NCBI GenBank assembly: GCA_018436595.1
Contig: JAHDLC010000029.1
Span: 1 to 51,139 of the forward strand
Source: Synergistaceae bacterium
GTDB taxonomy: Bacteria; Synergistota; Synergistia; Synergistales; Aminobacteriaceae
DNA: 51,139 nucleotides
Direction: 5' to 3'
A program made the translations under genes and the position numbers. The notes under the pieces were generated by a model, which ran no database searches, had not been told where the DNA came from, and saw only the letters and a list, made by a program, of their open reading frames with translations. Below are positions 40,183 to 51,139 of this stretch, one piece after another (the stretch's first letter is position 1; every line of letters begins with the position of its first letter).

Positions 40183-41691
40183 CTACAAGCCTGGGTCGTT
40201 TTGCTCCCCGTCCGCCACACCGGGCCAGAGGGAGGGAATGGCCTGCTCGGGAAAATCTTCCAGCTTTTTCCCTGCGGCAGCCCGAAGAAAATTGTCCACC
40301 CACCAGAAAACATCCTGCCGGGCGATGGACTTCCTGAGAAACCGCATCCTTTCCTTTTTTTCCCTGTCATCCATGAAGAAGGCTCTCCTGACCGCCCCTG
40401 CAACGGCGTCCACGTCATAGGGGTTCACCAGGACCGCTCCACGGGCAAGCTGAAGGGCTGCTCCGGCAAACTCGCTGAGAATGAGGACTCCCTTTTCCCG
40501 CCCCTTGCAGGCGCAGTACTCCTTGCAGACAAGGTTCATTCCGTCCTTGAGGGACGTCACGAGGGCCATGTCCGCCGCCCGGTACATGGCCGCGAGTTCT
40601 TCCCTTGACACGGAGCCGTAATGCCAGTTCACCGGAACCCACCGGGTGGTGGAAAACTCTCCGTTGATCCGGCTGATGAGCAGCTCGATTTCCTCCTTGA
40701 GGGCCTGGTACTGCTCCACCGTCTCCCTGCTCGGGACCACGACCTGGTGCAGGGTAATCCGCTCGCGGAGTTCAGGATACAGTTCGAGGCACCTCCGGAA
40801 CCCCCTGAGCTTTTCCGGTATGCCCTTGGAATAGTCCAGCCTGTCGACGCCGAGGATGAACTTTTCCCCGAAGATCTCCTGCCGTATTTCTTTCGCCCTG
40901 GCCACTGCGTGCCTTGTTCCCCCCAGGGAGGAGTAGGCCTGGTAATCAATGCTGATAGGAAGACTCCCCAGGGAGAACGAGCGATCGCCGAGATGAACTT
41001 TCACGATGTGTCCCCGGCCGGAAACCCTGCATTCCGGGTGGAATACCTTCAGGCAGTCGAGGAAATTCTTCCTGTCTCTGCCGGTCTGGAAGCACACGAA
41101 GGAGTACCGGGTCATCTGGTCGAGGATTTCCCTGCGCCTGGGCATCTTCATGAACACATCGACGCTGGGGAAAGGAATGTGGAGAAAAAAGGACGTCCTG
41201 AGGCCCGGCTGCTTCTCCCGGAGCATGGCCCCCAGGGGGATGAGCTGGTAATCGTTCACCCATATAAAATCATCCTCCGAAGCATGCCTCAGGACAACCC
41301 GGGCGAACTTGGCGTTTGAGCGTACATAGCCGTCCCAGTAGCGGGGAGAAAAATCGCAGCGGCTCTGGAGATCGTGAAAAAGGGGCCACAGTACGGAGTT
41401 GGAATATCCGTGGTAGAAGTCATGCACATCGTCCTCCGTGAGAATGACCGGAAGAAAGCGGTACCCGCTCTCCTCCGACACCGGGCCCAGGATATCCCGA
41501 ATATCGGCAAGACGGGCGCCCGAACCCGTTCCGGGCCACCCTGCCCAGAAACCGCCCCTGTTCTTCAGCACAGGGTTCATGGCGCTGACCAGTCCCCCCG
41601 ACGCCGGGCACCCTTTCCACTTCCCCTCCTCACAGGAGAGGGTCACAGGAAGGCGGTTGGACACCACCAGCAGTCTTCCTTTTTGTTTCAA
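40183..41691 (-). CDS. otsA: Trehalose-6-phosphate synthase family glycosyltransferase
   Basis: This 502-residue GT20 enzyme joins an NDP-glucose to glucose-6-phosphate, giving trehalose-6-phosphate. GT20 glucosylglycerol-phosphate synthases are close relatives and cannot be excluded. Motifs: LLVVSNRLPVTLS at the N-terminus, WVNDYQLIPLGAMLR, VDRLDYSKGIPEKLRGF (about 282-298), HYGSVSREELAAMYRAADMA and the nucleotide-sugar site LKDGMNLVCKEY with LSEFAGAA. The start is TTG at 41689-41691 with GGAGG eight nt upstream; TTGA overlaps the otsB stop. The neighbouring phosphatase and TreT-like gene support a trehalose role. It ends the operon. Confidence 0.88.
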   Translation of the reverse strand: MKQKGRLLVVSNRLPVTLSCEEGKWKGCPASGGLVSAMNPVLKNRGGFWAGWPGTGSGARLADIRDILGPVSEESGYRFLPVILTEDDVHDFYHGYSNSVLWPLFHDLQSRCDFSPRYWDGYVRSNAKFARVVLRHASEDDFIWVNDYQLIPLGAMLREKQPGLRTSFFLHIPFPSVDVFMKMPRRREILDQMTRYSFVCFQTGRDRKNFLDCLKVFHPECRVSGRGHIVKVHLGDRSFSLGSLPISIDYQAYSSLGGTRHAVARAKEIRQEIFGEKFILGVDRLDYSKGIPEKLRGFRRCLELYPELRERITLHQVVVPSRETVEQYQALKEEIELLISRINGEFSTTRWVPVNWHYGSVSREELAAMYRAADMALVTSLKDGMNLVCKEYCACKGREKGVLILSEFAGAALQLARGAVLVNPYDVDAVAGAVRRAFFMDDREKKERMRFLRKSIARQDVFWWVDNFLRAAAGKKLEDFPEQAIPSLWPGVADGEQNDPGL

Positions 41692-42488
41692 GGCGTTCCC
41701 CTCCTTCCGGCTGTAAGGGCGCCAAGCCATCTCCGCAGAAATTCCGGCACTTCCTCCGGCAGGATTCTCACACCGGCTGCACTGACCGCCGGAAGAGCGG
41801 ACACGAGAATTCCTGCACCCCGGCCGTCAAGCACCCGGAATGCGTCCTCGTCCGTCACGTCATCCCCGAGGTAGCATACGGGGTCCCTGAAGCTTCGGGC
41901 CGCCAGTATACGTTTCATGGCCTCCCCCTTGGTGCATGAAGGAAGGCGGAACTCAACCCCCTGGTCGAAAGGAAGTCTTTCAAGGCCGGATTGCGAAGCC
42001 CTTTCAAGAAGTACCTCCTCGATCTTCCGGTACTGTTCAAGAACATCGGGCCGTTCTCTCCAGTGCAGGGCGGCGGAAACGGGCTTCCTTTCCACCGCGT
42101 CGGGAGGGAAGGCGCGGAACAGGTCCGGGAGCATAAGAAGGGCCCGCTCCTCCGCGGCCGAAAGGGGTACGGTGACCGTATCACCTCCGGGTGACCGGCG
42201 CTGCCATCCGTGACATCCCCATATTTCCGCCGGCACTCCAAGAAGGGAAGCAGCCTCCGACGCCTCTCTCCCGGTGAGAAGGACAAACTCTCCTCCCGCT
42301 TCCAAAATTCTTTGGAGAAGGTCCTTCGTTTCTTCGGAAGGAACGGCCTCGCTCCTTTCCCTTCGGAAAGGGGCGAGGGTACCGTCGTAATCGCTCACAA
42401 GCAGCGGGCTGACTCCGCCGAAGGAACCGAAGAATCCTTCCAGGTCCGAAAGCCCCAGGCCGGGATGCCCTATATCCACCGCTCCCAC
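41688..42488 (-). CDS. otsB: Trehalose-6-phosphate phosphatase
   Basis: This 266-residue HAD-superfamily phosphatase removes phosphate from trehalose-6-phosphate. HAD motifs are in order: the nucleophile DYDGTLAPF (Asp about 33, 35), FVLLTGREASEA, the Lys in TKGEAMKRIL, and GDDVTDEDAFRVL. A cap domain lies between. The start is GTG at 42486-42488 behind a purine-rich GGAGGAGAAGGAGA site and lies 19 nt inside the glycosyltransferase gene. Overlap with otsA by 4 nt makes the synthase and phosphatase a coupled pair. Confidence 0.92.
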   Translation of the reverse strand: MGAVDIGHPGLGLSDLEGFFGSFGGVSPLLVSDYDGTLAPFRRERSEAVPSEETKDLLQRILEAGGEFVLLTGREASEAASLLGVPAEIWGCHGWQRRSPGGDTVTVPLSAAEERALLMLPDLFRAFPPDAVERKPVSAALHWRERPDVLEQYRKIEEVLLERASQSGLERLPFDQGVEFRLPSCTKGEAMKRILAARSFRDPVCYLGDDVTDEDAFRVLDGRGAGILVSALPAVSAAGVRILPEEVPEFLRRWLGALTAGRRGTP

Positions 42489-43711
42489 TCTCCTTCTCCT
42501 CCGTCCAGGGTCACCAGAAGGGAAAGGTAGTTCCGAAGCTGCCCGGTAATCAGGAAATTCTCAAGAACGTACTGCCTGGCGTTCACGCCCATTCTCTCTC
42601 TTTTCCAGCGGTGGGTCAGGAGGTACCGGATCCTGATGGCGGCACCCTCGGGAGACCGCACGCGAAAACCGTTGAACCGGTTGATGACCTGCAGCCGTAT
42701 GCCCCCGACGTCACCGCCTATGACCGGTTTTCTTTTCCACATGCCCTCGCTCACCGTAAGGCCGAAGCCTTCCCTGGTGGATTTCTGCACAATCACGTCT
42801 GCACCGGACTGGAGGGCATTGATGGCCCGATGGGCATCCGGCGGAAGGACAAGGACGGAAATATCGGGATCCCCTGCGGCCGCCTCGCGGACTGCGGAAA
42901 GGACCTCTCCCGACTCGGGATCATCCGCCGCCCCGCCCCCTGCGAGAACAAGCCGGATATCTGCGTGTTCTCTCGCGATCCGGTAGCTCTCAATGACCCC
43001 AAGAGGGTCCTTGAACCGGTCGAAACGGGAAACCTGGAGGATGACAGGCTTGTCCCTGGGCACTCCAAGCTCCCGGTACGTTTTTTCCACTTCCGCCTTC
43101 GAGAGGGGGATGTTCTTCTCGCTGAGCGGATCAATGCTGGGCGTGATGAGAAACTGCGGATGAGACAGGGGCTGGGCGAAATCGGGCAGTGAGAAGATCG
43201 AGGCGTCATAGCCCTCCACCTGTTTTTTCACGAACCGCCACACCGACCGGTTCGGGGCGCTGACGTCGATATGGCACCGCCAGATCCACTTCCCCTTCCG
43301 TCCGGGCATCATCCCCAGCAGGGCCGCCGGCTGCGGGTCGTGGATGAAAACGTAATCCGCACCTTCCAGGCTCTCCTTCAGCTTTTCGGCGTTTCTTTCA
43401 TTCGTCGCCGTGTAGGAGGCAACCTGTCCCTCGGAAAGTCCTCCCGCCATCCCCTGCAGTGAGTTGTGCAGCGTTTTCGTGCAGGCGAAGAAGGGTTCGT
43501 CTCCCTCGATGACCTCCCAGGAGACGTCAAGGCCGAGCTCCCGGGAGAGGGGGACCATGGAAGAGAGAATTTCCGCCACTCCTCCTCCGGCCCTGGTGGA
43601 GTTTACGTGAACAATCCGCTTTCCCCGGAGACGCTCCGCTATGGCCAGAAGGCTGTCCATGGCATGGAAGCCGATAACTTCGCCGTACTGCTTCAGCATG
43701 TCGGACATCAT
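42470..43711 (-). CDS. treT: TreT-like trehalose synthase (GT4 glycosyltransferase)
   Basis: This 413-residue GT4 protein closely follows the TreT pattern: IVHVNSTRAGGGVAEILSSM (about 33-52), VIEGDEPFFACTKTLHNSLQG, YVFIHDPQPAALLG, RCHIDVSAPN, QVSRFDRFKDPLGVI and the acidic-retaining motif QKSTREGFGLTVSEGMWK. TreT makes trehalose in one reversible step from NDP-glucose and glucose, without a phosphate intermediate. Acceptor specificity is inferred from the family. The ATG at 43709-43711 (MMSDML) has GGAGG six nt upstream and overlaps the preceding gene (ATGA). Together with otsBA it gives this operon two trehalose routes. Confidence 0.85.
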   Translation of the reverse strand: MMSDMLKQYGEVIGFHAMDSLLAIAERLRGKRIVHVNSTRAGGGVAEILSSMVPLSRELGLDVSWEVIEGDEPFFACTKTLHNSLQGMAGGLSEGQVASYTATNERNAEKLKESLEGADYVFIHDPQPAALLGMMPGRKGKWIWRCHIDVSAPNRSVWRFVKKQVEGYDASIFSLPDFAQPLSHPQFLITPSIDPLSEKNIPLSKAEVEKTYRELGVPRDKPVILQVSRFDRFKDPLGVIESYRIAREHADIRLVLAGGGAADDPESGEVLSAVREAAAGDPDISVLVLPPDAHRAINALQSGADVIVQKSTREGFGLTVSEGMWKRKPVIGGDVGGIRLQVINRFNGFRVRSPEGAAIRIRYLLTHRWKRERMGVNARQYVLENFLITGQLRNYLSLLVTLDGGEGEWERWI

Positions 43712-44385
43712 TTCTTCCCTCCCTTCCGGAGTCCCTTTTCGAGAATGGAGACGATCTGTCCCTTCAGTTCACCGAGGGAAAAAAGGTACGAATCCACCCT
43801 GCCGAGGAGCCGCCTCACCTCCGCGGTACCCTCGCCGAACTGTTCAAGCCACAGGGAGAAGTCGTCCTTTCCCTCAGGAGACCGGCGGCGGCCGTCGAGA
43901 AAGTGATGAAAAAAGCTCTGCCGGCTCACCGTTTTGACCGCCACGGGAAAATCCTCCAGGGAGGAGGTAACCTTTCCCGTATCGAACATGAATTTTTTGC
44001 AGGCAATAAAATAGAACTCCCTGTCCGCCTTTTTCCAGCTCAGGAAATCTCCCTGGTCAAGTCGGGCCTCGAGAATGTCCTCAAGGATAGACCGTAGTTC
44101 CCCAAGATCCTTGCACTTCACGGGATTGACGGCGCTGAGGGCTTCAGCGAGTTCCGTGTCCCCGAGGCCTCCGTCGGCCCACGAGGCAAAATCATTGTTG
44201 AACTCCGACTCGGCGATGTGGGGGCGGAGCATTCTGCCCCAGAAATGATAATAGAGGGAACTTTCCGGAATTTCGGGAACGGCGGACCTGAGTTCTCTGA
44301 GCGTCTGTGCTCGAAAGCCCGTGCTCACGGGCAGAAGAGAGCATTCCATAAATCTGAAGGGGCCGTTGGCTCCTGTAGTGTTCAT
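43708..44385 (-). CDS. DUF5752-like protein with internal duplication
   Basis: This 225-residue soluble protein of unknown function resembles the DUF5752 family as I remember it. It consists of two related halves. Half 1 (about 10-110) contains FRFMECSLLPVSTG, SSLYYHFWGRML, NDFASWADGGLG and LGELRSILEDILEARL. Half 2 (about 127-222) contains FYFIACKKFMFDTG, QSFFHHFLDGRR, DDFSLWLEQFG and LGELKGQIVSILEKGL. The shared His pair and D-D/N-F-x-x-W motif could form a site. It is the first gene of the trehalose operon, with a textbook AAGGAGGT ribosome site seven nt before the ATG (44383-44385), and overlaps treT. A regulatory or accessory role in trehalose metabolism is inference. Confidence 0.7.
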   Translation of the reverse strand: MNTTGANGPFRFMECSLLPVSTGFRAQTLRELRSAVPEIPESSLYYHFWGRMLRPHIAESEFNNDFASWADGGLGDTELAEALSAVNPVKCKDLGELRSILEDILEARLDQGDFLSWKKADREFYFIACKKFMFDTGKVTSSLEDFPVAVKTVSRQSFFHHFLDGRRRSPEGKDDFSLWLEQFGEGTAEVRRLLGRVDSYLFSLGELKGQIVSILEKGLRKGGKK

Positions 44386-44574: not shown

Positions 44575-44617
44575 TGCATAGAAGAAGCGGAGGTAAAACC
44601 TCCGCTTCTTCTATGCA
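44575..44617. repeat. Perfect 19-bp inverted repeat, terminator-like, after the racemase gene
   Basis: Bases 44575-44593 are perfectly complementary to 44599-44617, with a 5-nt loop (TAAAA). It lies 40 nt beyond the stop of the enolase-superfamily gene. No T-run follows on either strand, so if it is a terminator or mRNA-stabilising stem it is not the classic kind. The 271-nt gap 44386-44656 otherwise holds only the trehalose-operon promoter. Confidence 0.85.
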
Positions 44618-44656: not shown

Positions 44657-45769
44657 TCACGCAGAGAAGACTGCCTTTTCAAGGGTATGTTTCTCGACTC
44701 TCTCCATAATGGGAAAAACACCGATGCCTTCTCCCGGAGGAACTCCAATGGTACCGTCTTCCACAATGAATGGAGGGTCAACGATGTCTTCATCCCAGTA
44801 TTTGTCTGAACCTGAAACATCGCCCGGTATTCTGAAATTCGGCAACGAGGCGATCGCTATGTTGTGTGCCCTGCCTATCCCATACTCGTGCATTCCGCCG
44901 CACCACACCGGGATGTTCCGGGAACTGCAAAGATCGTGAATTTTCTTTGCCTCGGCAATTCCGCCCACCCTTCCGAGCTTTATGTTAATAACCCGGCAGC
45001 TCCCGAGGTCAAGAGCCTTACGGGCATCCTCTGCGGAGTGTATACTTTCATCGAGGCAGATCGGAGTCATCAGCTCTCTTTGAAGTACCGCGTGGTCGAT
45101 GATGTCCGTGAAGCCCAGGGGCTGTTCAATCATCATCAGGCCAAGATCATCCAGCTTTTTGAGCATGGGAGTGTCGGAGAGAGTATAGGCGGAATTTGCA
45201 TCTGCCATTATCGGAAGATCCGGGAACTCCCTTCTGACTGCCGCAAGAACATCGTAGTCCTTTCCCGGCCTGATTTTCATTTTGATCCTTTTGTAACCCT
45301 GCTCCAGAAATTTCTCTATCTTACCAAAAAGTGCTCGCACATTTTCCTGAACACCGATACTTACCCCTGAATCAATTCGCTCCCGGGTTCCTCCGAGTAA
45401 AACCGAAAGAGATACCCCCTTCGAGCGGGCTAAAAGATCCCAAACAGCCTGCTCAAGTCCGGCCTTGGCAAAATAATTCCCTCTCACGGATTTGTACCAC
45501 CTGTTGTTCAGCAGATCATCGATTTTTTCGACCGATACACCGGCGACATAGGGCGCGATGAACCTGGAGAGGAAATACCATGCTGTATCGGTGGTTTCGT
45601 TGATATAGTACGGCGTCTGGTTGCAGGTACACTCTCCATATCCCTCGAAACCTCCGCCGGAGACGGTGACAAGTACATGTTCGATGTGCGTTTTCGTTTC
45701 CGTGCTCGTGGTGAAAGGTTCTTTCAAGGGAATGGAGAGATGCCGAAGCTCAATTTTTTCCAGCAGCAT
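44657..45769 (-). CDS. Enolase-superfamily N-acylamino-acid racemase / o-succinylbenzoate synthase-like enzyme
   Basis: This 370-residue enzyme belongs to the MenC/NSAR branch of the muconate-lactonizing subgroup. The two catalytic lysines are visible (KMK at 163-165 and INIKLGRVGG, Lys264), as are the three metal ligands (MADANS Asp190, MIEQPL Glu215, CLDES Asp240). WCGGMHEYGIGRAHNIAIASLP and PGDVSGSDKYW are typical of the N-succinylamino acid racemases. No other menaquinone gene is near, while two amidohydrolases and a dicarboxylate carrier are, so racemisation of N-acyl (perhaps N-succinyl) amino acids is more likely than menaquinone synthesis. I chose the ATG at 45767-45769, ten nt after AAAGGA. 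The GC content is lower than in the housekeeping genes. Confidence 0.8.
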   Translation of the reverse strand: MLLEKIELRHLSIPLKEPFTTSTETKTHIEHVLVTVSGGGFEGYGECTCNQTPYYINETTDTAWYFLSRFIAPYVAGVSVEKIDDLLNNRWYKSVRGNYFAKAGLEQAVWDLLARSKGVSLSVLLGGTRERIDSGVSIGVQENVRALFGKIEKFLEQGYKRIKMKIRPGKDYDVLAAVRREFPDLPIMADANSAYTLSDTPMLKKLDDLGLMMIEQPLGFTDIIDHAVLQRELMTPICLDESIHSAEDARKALDLGSCRVINIKLGRVGGIAEAKKIHDLCSSRNIPVWCGGMHEYGIGRAHNIAIASLPNFRIPGDVSGSDKYWDEDIVDPPFIVEDGTIGVPPGEGIGVFPIMERVEKHTLEKAVFSA

Positions 45770-45956
45770 ACTCGGCACATCCTTTCAAAAATAAAAAGTC
45801 TATGTTGGGTACCGATGTCTCCCTAATGCACCGAAAGAAATGGAATACACTGTCACTCCGGCAAGCTCGGCGAGGAGGAATCGGGTGTCTCGATTAGGAT
45901 ATCTTTTCCGTGCTTTCATTCACTGCAAGGGTAAAACAGAGCTGTTTGAACCGGTC

Positions 45957-45985
45957 GCGGGGCTCTTCACACTCAAGAGCCCCGC
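45957..45985. repeat. Perfect 11-bp GC-rich hairpin after the DcuC-family gene
   Basis: GCGGGGCTCTT (45957-45967) pairs perfectly with AAGAGCCCCGC (45975-45985) around a 7-nt loop, 15 nt after the carrier stop codon. No T-run follows on the minus strand. It probably ends or protects the carrier mRNA. The rest of the 230-nt gap (45770-45999) shows no convincing promoter or gene. Confidence 0.75.
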
Positions 45986-45999
45986 AAATAAGCATAAGC

Positions 46000-47385
46000 C
46001 TAAAAGCCTACGAGAAAATAGTTGGCAGCTACTGTCATCAGTAATCCGCCAGCCATGGGAACCGCCGTTCTCTTGATCACATCAAAGGGAGAGAGGTTTG
46101 CGGCACCTGAAACGGCCACAATTACTGCTGTTATGGGAGAAACGCTTCGTGCGATTCCCGAGGCAAATTGCATGGGAAGGAGCATGGCTACCGCATCGAT
46201 TCCCATTTTCCCGGCAACATCGGGCGCAAGGGCAGCAAACGCAAAGAATGGTGCGTTTCCTGATCCCATTACGATCGCTGTGATTGAAATAATCGCCGTC
46301 ATGACGATAACCATCATTCCTGCACCGAATCCCGAACTCTGCGCACTCGTAATAAGAAAATCGATTGCCCCTATTGACCGAAGCCCTGCAGCGAAGAGTT
46401 CGCCGGCGACTATCAGGGTCAGTACCCTTGCAAATTGGACTCCCATGCCGTCGAAGAATACAAGAACACTCTTCATGACGCTCTTCAAATCCCGCCTGCG
46501 AATGACGAATTCAAAAAGCATGGAGACAAACATCCCGATCAGCATCGCTGTCACGACGTTCATTTTGATGGTATTGATCAAAAAGGAGCTGAAAATGAGG
46601 ATCATTGCCAGAGGAAGAAGCGGCAGAATAATGTAGATGAGCGGCGCGGCCTCCTTCTGTTCGCCGTTTCCTGATGTGAAATTCGAGACATCCTGTTTGA
46701 CTGCCTCGTGCCCCTCCTTCTTGTCGTAATACCGCTGCGTAATATAATGAAGAATCGCAATGGTAATCATAACCGCTATAGCTACCGGAATCTGATTGTC
46801 TACGAAGTATGCCGCAACATCTATCCCGGCGGTTTTTGCGGCCAGATTCGCGTTTCCCGAGGCAGGCCCGAGATCCAGGCATGCTGCCGTTCCTATCATA
46901 GCGGTAGCGGCTAATTTGCTGACACCCAGTCCAACGAGAATCGGATACATTGTCACCATGAGCAGGAGGCCGAGACCGGAAGCACTCGGAATAAAAATAT
47001 TCAGAACCTGACCGACAATATAGCCCAAAGCAAGAACAAGATAGGGCGCATGAAAGACCTGAAGGGGCTTTACGGCCACCCGTACAAGTACGTCACTCGC
47101 TCCTATGTGATCCATGTACTTGGCGAATCCCGCAGTTGCCATAATAATCAGACCGAGCCCTGCTGCCCTGTTTTTGAAAAGATAATGGAGAAGTTCAAAA
47201 ATATCGAACCAGACAAAGCCGGTCGATTTTACGCTCTTCGGAAGAAATTCACCGGTACCCATAAGAACGGCTGTTCCGATAAGAATAATACCTCCGAGCA
47301 TCAGCACGGGCTGCGGCTGATATTTTTTCACGATAAACCAGGCGATGCAAATCGTTATTGCCAGAGCGATAAGAAATCCCGTCAC
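46000..47385 (-). CDS. DcuC-family C4-dicarboxylate carrier
   Basis: This 461-residue inner-membrane protein has about 11-12 membrane segments and closely follows the anaerobic C4-dicarboxylate transporter DcuC: MDHIGASDVLVRVAVKPLQV, SASGLGLLLMVTMYPILVGLG, VMGSGNAPFFAFAALAPDVA, SPITAVIVAVSGAANLSPFD and VIKRTAVPMAGG. DcuC proteins exchange or export succinate and related dicarboxylates. Between the racemase and deacylase-like genes, a relative that imports N-acyl amino acids or exports the released succinate is plausible but unproven. The start is GTG at 47383-47385 behind AAGGAGGT (8-nt spacer). A charged cytoplasmic loop (about 217-247, DKKEGHEAVKQD...) divides two halves. Confidence 0.88.
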   Translation of the reverse strand: MTGFLIALAITICIAWFIVKKYQPQPVLMLGGIILIGTAVLMGTGEFLPKSVKSTGFVWFDIFELLHYLFKNRAAGLGLIIMATAGFAKYMDHIGASDVLVRVAVKPLQVFHAPYLVLALGYIVGQVLNIFIPSASGLGLLLMVTMYPILVGLGVSKLAATAMIGTAACLDLGPASGNANLAAKTAGIDVAAYFVDNQIPVAIAVMITIAILHYITQRYYDKKEGHEAVKQDVSNFTSGNGEQKEAAPLIYIILPLLPLAMILIFSSFLINTIKMNVVTAMLIGMFVSMLFEFVIRRRDLKSVMKSVLVFFDGMGVQFARVLTLIVAGELFAAGLRSIGAIDFLITSAQSSGFGAGMMVIVMTAIISITAIVMGSGNAPFFAFAALAPDVAGKMGIDAVAMLLPMQFASGIARSVSPITAVIVAVSGAANLSPFDVIKRTAVPMAGGLLMTVAANYFLVGF

Positions 47386-47460
47386 AACACTCTACCTCCT
47401 TGAAATAAATGTGCATTCATTCTCTTGTCTCTCTTTTTCCTTGAAAACGGAATAGCCCCG

Positions 47461-48876
47461 CTACCACCTTCCCTTCAAAAACGCACTTTCGCCGAGATCG
47501 GCTACCGAATGCGGCACATGCTCTTTTCGAAGCGTCTGAACGCCTCTTTCACTCGTGATGAGCATTCCGCTCCCTCTATGCACTACGCCTCCGGACATCC
47601 TGATTGTTCCCCCGACAATGGCTGTCTCTACATGGCCGTTCGCCGGGTCAGCTATAATCACATCCCCGTCCGCACCGGGCGAGAGGTGTCCTTTTCCTGA
47701 AAGGCCGAACATGGCGGCAGGATTAAGGGACGTTTTGCGGACAAACTCCGGAAGCGTCAGGTACCCCATGTGAACAAAACGAATGCCGTTGGAAAGGATA
47801 ACGTTTCGGGGAATACCTCCTCCATCGCTGCTGATGGCAGGAATAACAAACCGTCCTGCTTCGTTTTTCGCCACCGCACAGGCCGACAGAGAGACCGGGC
47901 TGTTAACGGGAAATGAACATTTTGAATCGCGGAGGTGGTTCCGCCAATACACGAGACCGTCCTCAGGGGTAAGATACTGCAGTTCCCCTCCGATAAGGGC
48001 GTAGATTTTAGCATAACCATCCTGAATTGCCTTTTCTAGACCTTTTTTGTCCGGGGAATACTTATTCTTTTCAAGACATGTTCTTGTAACATGACTTGCA
48101 GGAAGGTCGTTTTCGTCCAGAGCCGCATCGGTACCGTTGTCGACGGAAAGGTATGATTCCGATAGTATATTTGGTGATTGTTCCAGTTTTTCTAGGGCTC
48201 TTTTAACTTCAGCCAGGGGCGGCTGCACCGTTCCCCGGCAATAGGAGTTTATGTGGGCTACATGGAGAGGAAGTCCTTCGGAAAGTTCCACCGCCTGTTC
48301 GAATCCTTCAATGTTGCTGCCCCTGGTAGTACTGCCGGCATGGATGGCAACGTAGCATTTCTGCCGAGCACATTCCCTTACGATACGAGAGATGGCATCA
48401 GGAGAAACAGGATAGTGCCCTCCGAGAATCTTTACCCCGAACGCCCCCTCGGAAAGTGCCTTTGCAACGGCTTCGGCAACTTCGGACGGGGAAGGATCGG
48501 GCCCTGAAAGGTTCTTTCCAGGGCGGAGGGCCTCAAGAACGAGCGCGTTCATACCGCACCCCTTTTCCCGAATCTCTTTTTTCACTGTCGCCACCGGTCC
48601 GGCAAAGCCGGCAGCCGTCGTGACGCCGGATTTCAGAAGCATGGCAAAGGCCGCGCCCTCAGCGTTCGGCCTCACAAGATGTGCATGAGAATCGACAATC
48701 CCGGGAAGAACCAGTTTTCCCCGTGCATCCAGCACCAGGGCAGCCTCTTCAATACCAATCCCCGGAGCCGATTCCTCGACACATCCATTACGGAGACCTA
48801 TGTCCCGAATTTCAAAGACTGCATTCAGAGGATCCACTACCATGCCGTTTCGTATAAGAATATCAAAATGCTTCAT
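47461..48876 (-). CDS. Amidohydrolase-superfamily enzyme A (D-aminoacylase/hydantoinase-like)
   Basis: This 471-residue cyclic-amidohydrolase-like protein has metal ligands in order: HxH in GIVDSHAHLVRP (His64, His66), a Lys in GAFGVKILGGHYP (Lys149, possibly carboxylated), His179 in IHAGSTTRGSNIEG, His208 in HVAHINSYCRG and Asp near 350 in ISSDGGGIPRN. The C-terminal GKGHLSPGADGDVIIADP is the usual beta-sandwich return. Substrate is unknown; an N-acyl or cyclic amide of an amino acid fits the family and neighbours. It is a tandem paralogue of the next gene upstream (48976-50391). The ATG at 48874-48876 lies 99 nt after that paralogue and 75 nt precede the carrier. Confidence 0.85.
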   Translation of the reverse strand: MKHFDILIRNGMVVDPLNAVFEIRDIGLRNGCVEESAPGIGIEEAALVLDARGKLVLPGIVDSHAHLVRPNAEGAAFAMLLKSGVTTAAGFAGPVATVKKEIREKGCGMNALVLEALRPGKNLSGPDPSPSEVAEAVAKALSEGAFGVKILGGHYPVSPDAISRIVRECARQKCYVAIHAGSTTRGSNIEGFEQAVELSEGLPLHVAHINSYCRGTVQPPLAEVKRALEKLEQSPNILSESYLSVDNGTDAALDENDLPASHVTRTCLEKNKYSPDKKGLEKAIQDGYAKIYALIGGELQYLTPEDGLVYWRNHLRDSKCSFPVNSPVSLSACAVAKNEAGRFVIPAISSDGGGIPRNVILSNGIRFVHMGYLTLPEFVRKTSLNPAAMFGLSGKGHLSPGADGDVIIADPANGHVETAIVGGTIRMSGGVVHRGSGMLITSERGVQTLRKEHVPHSVADLGESAFLKGRW

Positions 48877-48975
48877 TGTCCTACCGACCTCATTTCCTTT
48901 TTATCCAGGAAAGGGCAGAGCGGTTCCCGGAATGCTGCCCTGGGACTCTGCACGTCCAGTTCATGGTTTGATACA

Positions 48976-50391
48976 TCAGCGTCCTTTCAGAAACATGCTT
49001 TTTTCGAGACATACCGTCTCATGGGGAATGCCTTCTGCCTTCAGACGAGAAGCCCCTCTTTCACCTGTCAGGAGAACCCCGCTTCCTCCGAAAACAATCC
49101 CGCGTGCCATACGAACTTTTCCGGCGGTAACGACCACTTCCGCTTCTCCGCTGGAGGGGTCGGCGATCGTTACATCGGCGTCAGCTCCCGATGTGAAGTG
49201 ACCTTTGCCGGCGAGACCGAACATTCTCGCCGGCAAAAGGGAAATCTTTTCTACCAGTTCTTTCAGGGTTAAATATCCCATCCTGGTCAGCATTATCCCG
49301 TTTTTGAGAATGATGTTGCGAGGGATGCCTCCACCGTCACTGCTTATAGCGGGGATGATGAAACGGCCACTCTCATCCTTTGAGACAGCGCACGCAGCCA
49401 AGGACGCTGGCATGTTGACAGGGAAAGAACATTTTGCCCCGCTTTTGTTCGCTTTCCAGTAATCCAGTCCCTCTGAAACCGTAAGGTAATCCATTTCATC
49501 TCCGACAAGGGCATAAATTTTGGCATAACCTGCCTTCAATGCTTCTTCCAGGCCTTTGCCGTCTTCAGGATACCCTCCCATCCGAAGGCATGCCCTCGTC
49601 ACATGGCTTTTGGGGAGTCCATCCTCGTCAAGGTCGGCGCTCGTGCTGTTGTTGACCGCAAGATGGGATTCGGAAATTATATTGGGTGATTCAAGGAGTT
49701 TCCTGAATGCTCTCGACAGCTCTGCGGGGATCGGCTCGACCATTCCTCTGCAGTACGCATTTATGTGTGCAAGATGGAGGGGAAGCCCCTGTGCAAGGTC
49801 AACGACCTGTTCCATTCCTTCTATGTTGCTGCCTTTTGTTGTGCTCCCTGCGTGGGCCCCTACGTAGCATTTTTGTTCAGAAGCCTCGTATATGATGGCT
49901 TCTATGCTTTCCGGCGTTAAAGGGTAGTGCCCTCCGAGAATTTTCACCCCGAAAGCTCCGTCATCAAGCGCTTTCCCGACTACCTGACGCACCTCAGTTT
50001 TTGATGGGCCCGGCGAGCTGAAACCGTTTCCGGAATGGAGAGCTTCCAGGACAAGGACATTAAGGCCGCTTCCTTTTTCCACAATCTCCTTCTTCACTGT
50101 CTGAACGGGACCGGCAAAACAGGCAGCTGTAGTCACCCCTGCTTTTAGAAGCATTCCGTAGGCTGCCCCTTCAGAACCAGGCCTCACAAGATGGGCGTGG
50201 GAGTCAACCACTCCGGGAATAACCAGCTTGCCCTGAGCGTCGATGATCTGATCTGATTTGCTCCTGTCCAGTTGCCGGGCACAATCATCAATACGCCCGT
50301 TTCTGACAGCGAGATCGCACTTCCCGAGAATGCCGTTCATGGGATCGACAACAGTACCGTTCAAGAAAAGAATGTCGTATCGTTTCCTCAT
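48976..50391 (-). CDS. Amidohydrolase-superfamily enzyme B (tandem paralogue)
   Basis: This 471-residue protein has the same length and layout as enzyme A, with well over half of the residues identical by eye. All ligands are kept: HxH (His65, His67), GAFGVKILGGHYP (Lys150), AHAGSTTKGSNIEG (His180), HLAHINAYCRG (His209) and ISSDGGGIPRN. Differences cluster in the N-terminal strand region, the segment at about 225-300 and the last 60 residues, which may alter substrate range. It is the first intact gene of the accessory operon. Its ATG at 50389-50391 lies 4 nt after the stop codon of a decayed ORF, whose last codons supply the GAGAGG ribosome site. Confidence 0.85.
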   Translation of the reverse strand: MRKRYDILFLNGTVVDPMNGILGKCDLAVRNGRIDDCARQLDRSKSDQIIDAQGKLVIPGVVDSHAHLVRPGSEGAAYGMLLKAGVTTAACFAGPVQTVKKEIVEKGSGLNVLVLEALHSGNGFSSPGPSKTEVRQVVGKALDDGAFGVKILGGHYPLTPESIEAIIYEASEQKCYVGAHAGSTTKGSNIEGMEQVVDLAQGLPLHLAHINAYCRGMVEPIPAELSRAFRKLLESPNIISESHLAVNNSTSADLDEDGLPKSHVTRACLRMGGYPEDGKGLEEALKAGYAKIYALVGDEMDYLTVSEGLDYWKANKSGAKCSFPVNMPASLAACAVSKDESGRFIIPAISSDGGGIPRNIILKNGIMLTRMGYLTLKELVEKISLLPARMFGLAGKGHFTSGADADVTIADPSSGEAEVVVTAGKVRMARGIVFGGSGVLLTGERGASRLKAEGIPHETVCLEKSMFLKGR

Positions 50392-50395
50392 TAGG

Positions 50396-50817
50396 CTACA
50401 GCCTCTCTTTCTTTAATACTCCTGAAGGCGGAAACAGGTCCTGTATCTGAGGCACTTCCTTCATTGCCTTGAGTGGTTCAGCCGGCCATTGCAACATATC
50501 AGGGAGATAATCTCTTCCTGTCCGTAAATGGTCCAATAACCAATTTACAAACCGGCGACGGTTTTTTAAGGAATACCGGCAAACAATCGTAGGAAGTCCT
50601 TCTGCAACAGTCTTTTAAGGTTTTTATCTCCGGGATGGTTCCAAAACGACGACTGCAAACAAGCATTTGAAGTTGACTCCCGATTCTCGGGAAATCATAA
50701 AAAGAGGAATTTCTTTGCAGACGATATTTTATAGTATCAAAACTGCGGGATTGCCATACTGCCTTTTCAAATGTGTATTCACTTTATCATCTTTTCTTCA
50801 AAGCTGTCAAACCCGTT
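50396..50817 (-). pseudogene. Decayed coding remnant upstream of the amidohydrolase operon
   Basis: On the minus strand an open frame runs from 50817 to about 50604 (contains SFEEKDDKVNTFEKAVWQSR and RRFGTIPEIKTLKDC). After a one-base shift near 50600-50612 it continues as EGLPTIVCRYSLKN, RRRFVNWLLDHLRTGRDYLP and LQWPAEPLKAMKEV to a TAG at 50396-50398. Together about 140 residues read like protein, but there is no proper start, a TAA stands upstream at 50818-50820, and I recognise no family. The tight 4-nt spacing to the next gene suggests a former first gene of the operon, perhaps truncated by insertion activity. Bases 50818-50954 hold only short coding-like scraps. Confidence 0.4.
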
Positions 50818-50954
50818 TTAAACTCCCAATTCGTTATTTGGTTCCCTCACGAAAATTGAAGTGCTCATACCCTGGATTCCCGGCCACACCTAACGAGAAC
50901 GCCTGGCTAGCCTCAATAAATCCAGTGACAATCGAACTTTGACAACAAAAGTAC

Positions 50955-50983
50955 TTGACGTGCTCCTCGTTATGTAATAATAT
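50955..50983 (+). promoter_or_regulatory. Promoter of the transposase gene
   Basis: On the plus strand there is TTGACG (50955-50960, five of six -35 bases), a 17-bp spacer and TAATAT (50978-50983, four of six). The predicted start is near 50990, about 17 nt before the ATG. It is the only convincing plus-strand promoter in the window. Confidence 0.6.
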
Positions 50984-50996
50984 ATACGTAACGAGG
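50965..50996. promoter_or_regulatory. Inverted repeat spanning the transposase promoter -10 region
   Basis: CCTCGTTATGTA (50965-50976) and TACGTAACGAGG (50985-50996) form a 12-bp inverted repeat with one mismatch (a G-T pair in RNA) around the 8-bp AT-rich centre that holds the -10 box. Its place fits an operator, or a structure that damps translation by pairing the region just before the ribosome site. Confidence 0.55.
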
Positions 50997-51006
50997 ATGT
51001 GGGGCA

Positions 51007-51139
51007 ATGGCAAGCATCGTCTTCCAGAAGGACAAACGCTCCGGGATCACCTACGCCTATGAATCGGTCTCCTACTGGGACAAGGAAAAAAAGCAGTCAC
51101 GGGCGAAGCGGACCCTGGTCGGCCGGGTCGATGAAAAAA
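51007..51139 (+). CDS. IS1634-like transposase, N-terminal 44 codons (cut by window edge)
   Basis: The ATG at 51007 opens a frame that runs off the window end. The visible peptide, with IVFQKDKRSGITYAYESVSY followed by WDKEKKQSRAKRTLVGRVDE, matches the N-terminal module of IS1634/IS4-superfamily DDE transposases (a strand-rich YxYESxxYWDxEKKQ...R..LG pattern). GAGG lies ten nt and GGGG two nt before the ATG. The catalytic DDE part and the right end of the element are outside the window, so terminal repeats and target duplications cannot be checked. It is the only plus-strand gene. Confidence 0.8.
   Translation, partial: MASIVFQKDKRSGITYAYESVSYWDKEKKQSRAKRTLVGRVDEK

Follow-up and report, generated by a model that had tools for sequence, protein, structure and literature searches.

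Do the four adjacent genes at 44657-50391 of this stretch of DNA form a working cassette and, if so, for which substrate? The window is the whole stretch analysed, that is, the entire 51139 bases of contig C29, part of the 3.2-Mb genome of a Synergistaceae bacterium. It contains at this place four intact open reading frames, all on the minus strand, with transcription in the order AH1, AH2, DcuC, NSAR. An earlier note, made from the sequence, had read them as a set for the use of N-acyl amino acids, and its identification of the four genes agreed with their placement by Pfam and NCBIfam. AH1 (48976-50391, minus strand, 471 aa), the first gene of the cassette, encodes an uncharacterised amidohydrolase-superfamily metallohydrolase (Amidohydro_1/_3), and AH2 (47461-48876, minus strand, 471 aa) is its tandem paralogue with 60% identity. 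DcuC (46000-47385, minus strand, 461 aa; PF03606) encodes a DcuC-family protein that scores 433.6 bits with NF037994 (cut-off 100) and 389.8 bits with TIGR00771 (cut-off 187); by these family models it is a predicted C4-dicarboxylate carrier, as the note had it. NSAR (44657-45778, minus strand, 373 aa, starting at GTG 45778 or ATG 45769) encodes an enolase-superfamily racemase of the NSAR/OSBS subfamily. The set is real, coherent and new as a combination, with parts of known kinds.

The intergenic gaps along the cassette are 99 bp (AH1-AH2), 75 bp (AH2-DcuC) and 221 bp (DcuC-NSAR). A promoter-like site lies upstream of AH1 at 50781-50810 on the minus strand (TTGACA-18-TAAAGT with an extended TG, 10 of 12 consensus positions), identified by sequence match alone. 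Just past NSAR, at 44575-44617, is a palindrome with a 20-bp stem (fold z -9.9) that is a likely transcription terminator, though its T-run sits on the plus strand in our scan, making its use by the cassette uncertain. The DcuC-NSAR gap holds a strong, GC-rich 13-bp hairpin without a T-tract (approximately 45951-45987, minus strand, z -4.2), a possible processing or attenuation element, and the scan gave no minus-strand promoter match in this gap. Since the hairpin in the 221-bp gap is free of a T-run, NSAR is likely to be co-transcribed with AH1, AH2 and DcuC. Upstream of AH1, a 72-aa open frame at 50396-50614 matches no family and is possibly a gene remnant. Beyond the terminal palindrome, 40183-44385 carries sugar genes: DUF5752, a TreT-like glycosyltransferase, a trehalose phosphatase and a GT20 glycosyltransferase.

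The four-gene block is a laterally acquired, foreign island next to a mobile element. At the cassette edge the GC content drops from roughly 0.60 to 0.50, and the four genes have GC3 values of 0.51-0.56 where their neighbours have 0.63-0.78. A repeated element (50930-51139, plus strand) makes up the end of the contig, 0.5 kb upstream of AH1; it resembles the beginning of a transposase ORF and has copies of 98-100% identity on contigs C41 (two) and C15. Close relatives are without the block: an AH relative was found in one of four congeners, at 41% identity; NSAR relatives at E<=1e-60 occur in 3 of 188 genomes of the phylum, the source genome included; and a search of 150 related genomes gave no DcuC relative at E<=1e-90. 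In the AH tree, AH1 and AH2 fall beside gut Desulfovibrionaceae and apart from other Synergistota. The low GC common to all four genes, as opposed to their neighbours, also supports a joint role.

What might NSAR do in such a block? It has the MR_MLE_N/C Pfam domains, scores 350.8 bits with TIGR01928 (cut-off 200.65), and has N-acylamino acid racemases as its closest solved structures (2zc8, E 9e-100). As the earlier note claimed, both catalytic lysines are present, K166/K168 (as KxK) and K267, together with the metal ligands D193, E218 and D243. Three residues past K267, R270 occupies the place of a second-shell arginine, which we take to be the equivalent of R266 in the Amycolatopsis NSAR, presumably linked to racemase activity. 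The name attached to TIGR01928 by NCBI would make the gene an o-succinylbenzoate synthase. However, the eight genes tested between 40183 and 50391 include no menaquinone gene, in agreement with the note, and no gene in the whole genome exceeds the MenD cut-off (best 53 bits against 244.2). A menaquinone (MenC/OSBS) role was ruled out because the genome is without MenD, and since the NSAR residues are also complete, action solely as an o-succinylbenzoate synthase is unlikely. The substrates of known NSARs include N-succinyl-, N-acetyl-, N-carbamoyl- and N-formyl-amino acids, and the characterised enzymes are tabulated with N-acyl Met, Phe and phenylglycine, not with acidic amino acids (PMC7431475). 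N-acyl and N-carbamoyl amino acids thus fit the predicted racemase.

The two hydrolases are harder to place. Their Pfam matches are confined to amidohydrolase families, and neither reaches any curated NCBIfam cut-off (the highest scores are 75 and 71 bits, for cut-offs of 340 and 371). Their scores with the hydantoinase, dihydroorotase and allantoinase models, whose cut-offs lie at 279-786 bits, do not exceed 72 bits. The full binuclear-metal ligand set ascribed to them is nevertheless there in both: H65, H67, K150, H180, H209 and D352 in AH1, and H64, H66, K149, H179, H208 and D351 in AH2. This set of HxH, Lys, two His and Asp on the superfamily fold is that of the amidohydrolase superfamily. 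All six ligands are invariant across 63 aligned relatives, as are R215, N326, R358 and N359 (AH1 numbering). At position 91 the other 61 aligned proteins all have an acidic residue, but AH1 has Cys (C91, window 50119-50121) and AH2 has Gly (G90), so that the AH1/AH2 pair has diverged. The two are sisters in the AH tree (support 100/100) and, judged by sequence, are a lineage-specific tandem duplication; the suggestion that they have different roles found no support. A scan of 84,980 species genomes gave 189 AH relatives in many phyla. AH may be a new amidohydrolase subfamily without a curated function model, at least within the open-licence literature searched; an earlier description outside it is possible.

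An AlphaFold model of AH1 (pLDDT 96) was compared with solved structures, counting Z differences within 1 as ties. The longest alignment was to D-aminoacylase 1m7j (Z 31.6 over 382 residues), followed by Aquifex dihydroorotase (Z 31.5, 315 residues, rmsd 2.6) and N-acyl-D-glutamate deacylase 3gip (Z 31.0, Foldseek rank 1), with hydantoinase and isoaspartyl dipeptidase at Z of about 28. Because 31.6 and 31.5 are tied, the fold does not separate linear-amide hydrolysis, as by the deacylase, from ring hydrolysis, as by dihydroorotase. AH resembles the D-aminoacylase and N-acyl-D-Glu deacylase structures in having SDG...PR after the catalytic Asp, presumably the same motif as that ascribed to D-aminoacylase, but the identity is about 20%, and the invariant lysine ligand K150 aligns, in a weak stretch of the alignment, with a Ser in 1m7j. 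AH is therefore no strict member of the D-aminoacylase family. With dihydroorotase, hydantoinase and allantoinase it shares the fold and the HxH, Lys, two His and Asp ligands. In that group the Asp ligand typically lies in a TDH motif, whereas in AH it lies within SDGGGIPR, and the insert before this last ligand is longer, with 143 residues separating H209 and D352. Nor was there support for placing AH with the metal-dependent bile salt hydrolase; the dipeptidase 3MTW, to which its authors likened it, is absent among the matches listed, a weak argument.

If the hydrolases cannot be named from their fold, the neighbourhoods of their relatives offer a second source of evidence. Neighbourhood data were kept for 80 of the 189 relatives, with the remaining 109 loci outside the set. 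Up to two operonic genes away from AH there were 114 proteins, in which DcuC (18), M20 (14), TRAP DctM (11) and Asp/Glu racemase (6) were the best-represented families, and 5 proteins belonged to the hydantoinase/carbamoylase-family M20 (TIGR01879, NCBIfam). By our estimate, about 0.2 would be expected by chance for a family with 5 copies per 2500 genes. On the AH tree, DcuC linkage requires about 11 changes, 9 of them forced by starred branches, so the linkage is recurrent and not a single inheritance. AH plus DcuC is thus a module found widely, of which the four-gene set is one variant.

The closest cassettes come from Maledivibacter halophilus, Clostridium mobile and, in two places, a gut Desulfovibrionaceae genome (L027, L034, L032, L157), and consist of AH, DcuC and M20. 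They have M20 and no NSAR, whereas the window has two AH genes and NSAR and no M20. The AH proteins of L027, L032 and L034 form one clade with AH1 and AH2 (support 99/97). DcuC identity is 54-66% in three of the four cassettes (66% in Maledivibacter, 61% in Clostridium mobile) and 39% in L032. The L032 M20 is related to the polyaspartate hydrolase 7ljh, and the M20s of the other nearest cassettes share its cluster. Among 391 genomes of the Maledivibacter class no AH was found beyond the match already known, while the 288 genomes in the family of that gut bacterium gave one further M20-DcuC-AH cassette (L157), again without NSAR.

Other loci speak to the substrate more directly. In Desulfuromusa kysingii, a single gene at L055:11438-13645 encodes an aspartate racemase domain fused with a complete aspartate ammonia-lyase (AspA), and adjoins AH, DcuC, a carbamoylase-type M20 and a further M20. 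L080 has AH together with an aspartate racemase and an aspartase-like (AspA-like) lyase, and L064 has a Glu/Asp-symporter-like gene near AH. The AH proteins of these aspartate-pointing loci are only about 37-48% identical to AH1. The recurrence near AH of the racemase-AspA fusion, the L080 and L064 genes and polyaspartate-hydrolase-like M20s favours aspartate, and by analogy the neighbourhoods point to aspartate or other acidic amino acids as the substrate type. For the N-succinyl substrate proposed earlier there is no direct evidence. Separately, in a Lentisphaerae locus (L086:2752-4227), two tandem-fused Asp/Glu racemase domains (492 aa) adjoin AH. In L047 (6140-8209) and L049, an AH-DcuC-M20 cluster contains a succinate-CoA ligase beta-subunit gene with an apparent alpha-subunit gene adjacent, a hint that succinate or some other C4 acid is produced.

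We tentatively favour a cassette for the uptake and hydrolysis of an N-substituted acidic amino acid, most likely of the N-acyl or N-carbamoyl aspartate type, that is racemised while still N-substituted; we would put this reading somewhat short of an even chance. The dicarboxylate-like substrate would enter through DcuC, by import or in exchange for a C4-dicarboxylate product. By 1,1-proton transfer (K168/K267, divalent metal), NSAR would interconvert the enantiomers of the N-substituted amino acid, supplying whichever one the hydrolases might prefer. Amide hydrolysis by AH1 and AH2, at a binuclear metal centre in which K150 would be carbamylated, would then release the amino acid and an acid. 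The earlier note's cassette thus stands in part: a joint role on N-substituted amino acids is likely from the scope of NSARs, the AH1 fold and the co-occurrence of AH and DcuC, but conservation of the four genes together is not borne out, because AH-DcuC recurs across phyla and NSAR stands beside AH nowhere else among the fetched loci. Counting against the favoured reading are this single NSAR-AH locus, the 221-bp gap with its hairpin, and the absence of K150 from D-aminoacylase.

An unlikely alternative is ring opening: AH1 and AH2 would convert a cyclic ureide (5-carboxymethylhydantoin or dihydroorotate, for example) into an N-carbamoyl amino acid, after which NSAR would racemise this intermediate and a carbamoylase encoded elsewhere would complete the breakdown. 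The lysine-containing ligand set is of the cyclic amidohydrolase type, the AH1 model is near Aquifex dihydroorotase, and TIGR01879 proteins occur among the operonic neighbours of AH relatives; the source genome itself has 5 TIGR01879 genes above the cut-off. Hydantoin-utilisation clusters typically combine a racemase, a carbamoylase, an amidohydrolase and a transporter, as does L055. NSARs are also used together with hydantoinase and carbamoylase (PMC7431475). However, the cassette itself is without a carbamoylase, AH is far under every hydantoinase, dihydroorotase and allantoinase cut-off, and its Asp ligand lies in SDGGGIPR, not TDH, at the end of the long H209-D352 interval.

It is more doubtful that AH1, AH2 and DcuC are the working unit and that the racemase gene was carried in and serves another role. 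NSAR adjoins no other AH gene found (80 of the 189 relatives kept, plus L157), so its membership in the system rests on one locus. NSAR relatives at E<=1e-40 are present in 12 of 48 AH-bearing genomes, though not beside AH where the neighbourhood was readable; three regions gave no NSAR call in the ORF pass. Being located away from AH, these relatives were rejected as proof of co-occurrence, and two of the matches, at 30-32% identity, may be other epimerases. Elsewhere, NSAR relatives sit in unrelated contexts, and in two genomes of the phylum (G135, G136) their flanking genes have no AH or DcuC match. L035 and L083 have enolase-superfamily genes close to AH, but these were rejected as NSAR equivalents, as their best models are sugar-acid dehydratases. 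The gap and hairpin before NSAR would also suit a separate gene. On the other side, NSAR is on the same strand and matches the other three genes in base composition, the gap has no minus-strand promoter match, the strong palindrome comes only after NSAR, and amino acid racemases of another family recur next to AH.

Quite improbable is a peptide reading, in which AH1 and AH2 would cleave isoaspartyl or aspartyl peptides and NSAR would act like a dipeptide epimerase: the polyaspartate-hydrolase-like M20 partners, the Opp-type ABC transporters that adjoin AH in L025, L026, L033 and L044, and the structural match to isoaspartyl dipeptidase speak for it, but NSAR is far under the L-Ala-D/L-Glu epimerase cut-offs (96.3 bits against 500; 76.2 against 343) and does best in TIGR01928, and the best structural match of AH1 is to another enzyme.

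Racemisation followed by hydrolysis of an N-substituted acidic amino acid, the reading we prefer, has parallels. The NSAR/GNAT/M20 L-desuccinylase pathway of Geobacillus kaustophilus, reportedly described by Sakai et al. in 2006, is alike in that NSAR racemises an N-acyl amino acid and a metal amidohydrolase cleaves it, with net stereo-inversion. It differs in its GNAT succinyltransferase and M20 desuccinylase, both absent here; the window has amidohydrolase-superfamily hydrolases and a DcuC carrier, which suggests an exogenous substrate. Industry pairs NSARs with stereospecific N-acyl or N-carbamoyl amidohydrolases (PMC7431475), the same two activities that we infer here, but that pairing is man-made, whereas here the adjacency is natural and includes a transporter gene. 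Natural roles are settled for few NSARs despite this industrial use, and a linked NSAR-amidohydrolase-carrier set offers a concrete candidate role.

Among the AH relatives, the stereochemical problem would be solved after hydrolysis by an aspartate racemase, once fused to aspartase, and in the window by NSAR before hydrolysis. It is possible, if rather unlikely in full, that the AH subfamily is at the centre of an undescribed anaerobe route for N-substituted aspartates and related acidic amino acids, one that recovers both enantiomers by either of two non-homologous means, aspartate racemase (with aspartase) after hydrolysis or NSAR before it. The aspartate racemase, aspartase and dicarboxylate carrier neighbours narrow the substrate to assayable compounds. 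To our knowledge, carboxymethylhydantoinase is an orphan activity with no sequence assigned, and the cyclic-ureide version, if true, would provide one. The AH family, spread over many phyla, is borne by gut bacteria that include Sutterella, Phascolarctobacterium and Desulfovibrionaceae. One gut Desulfovibrionaceae genome (G195, that of L031) has four paralogues of AH, of which at least three differ in their surroundings.
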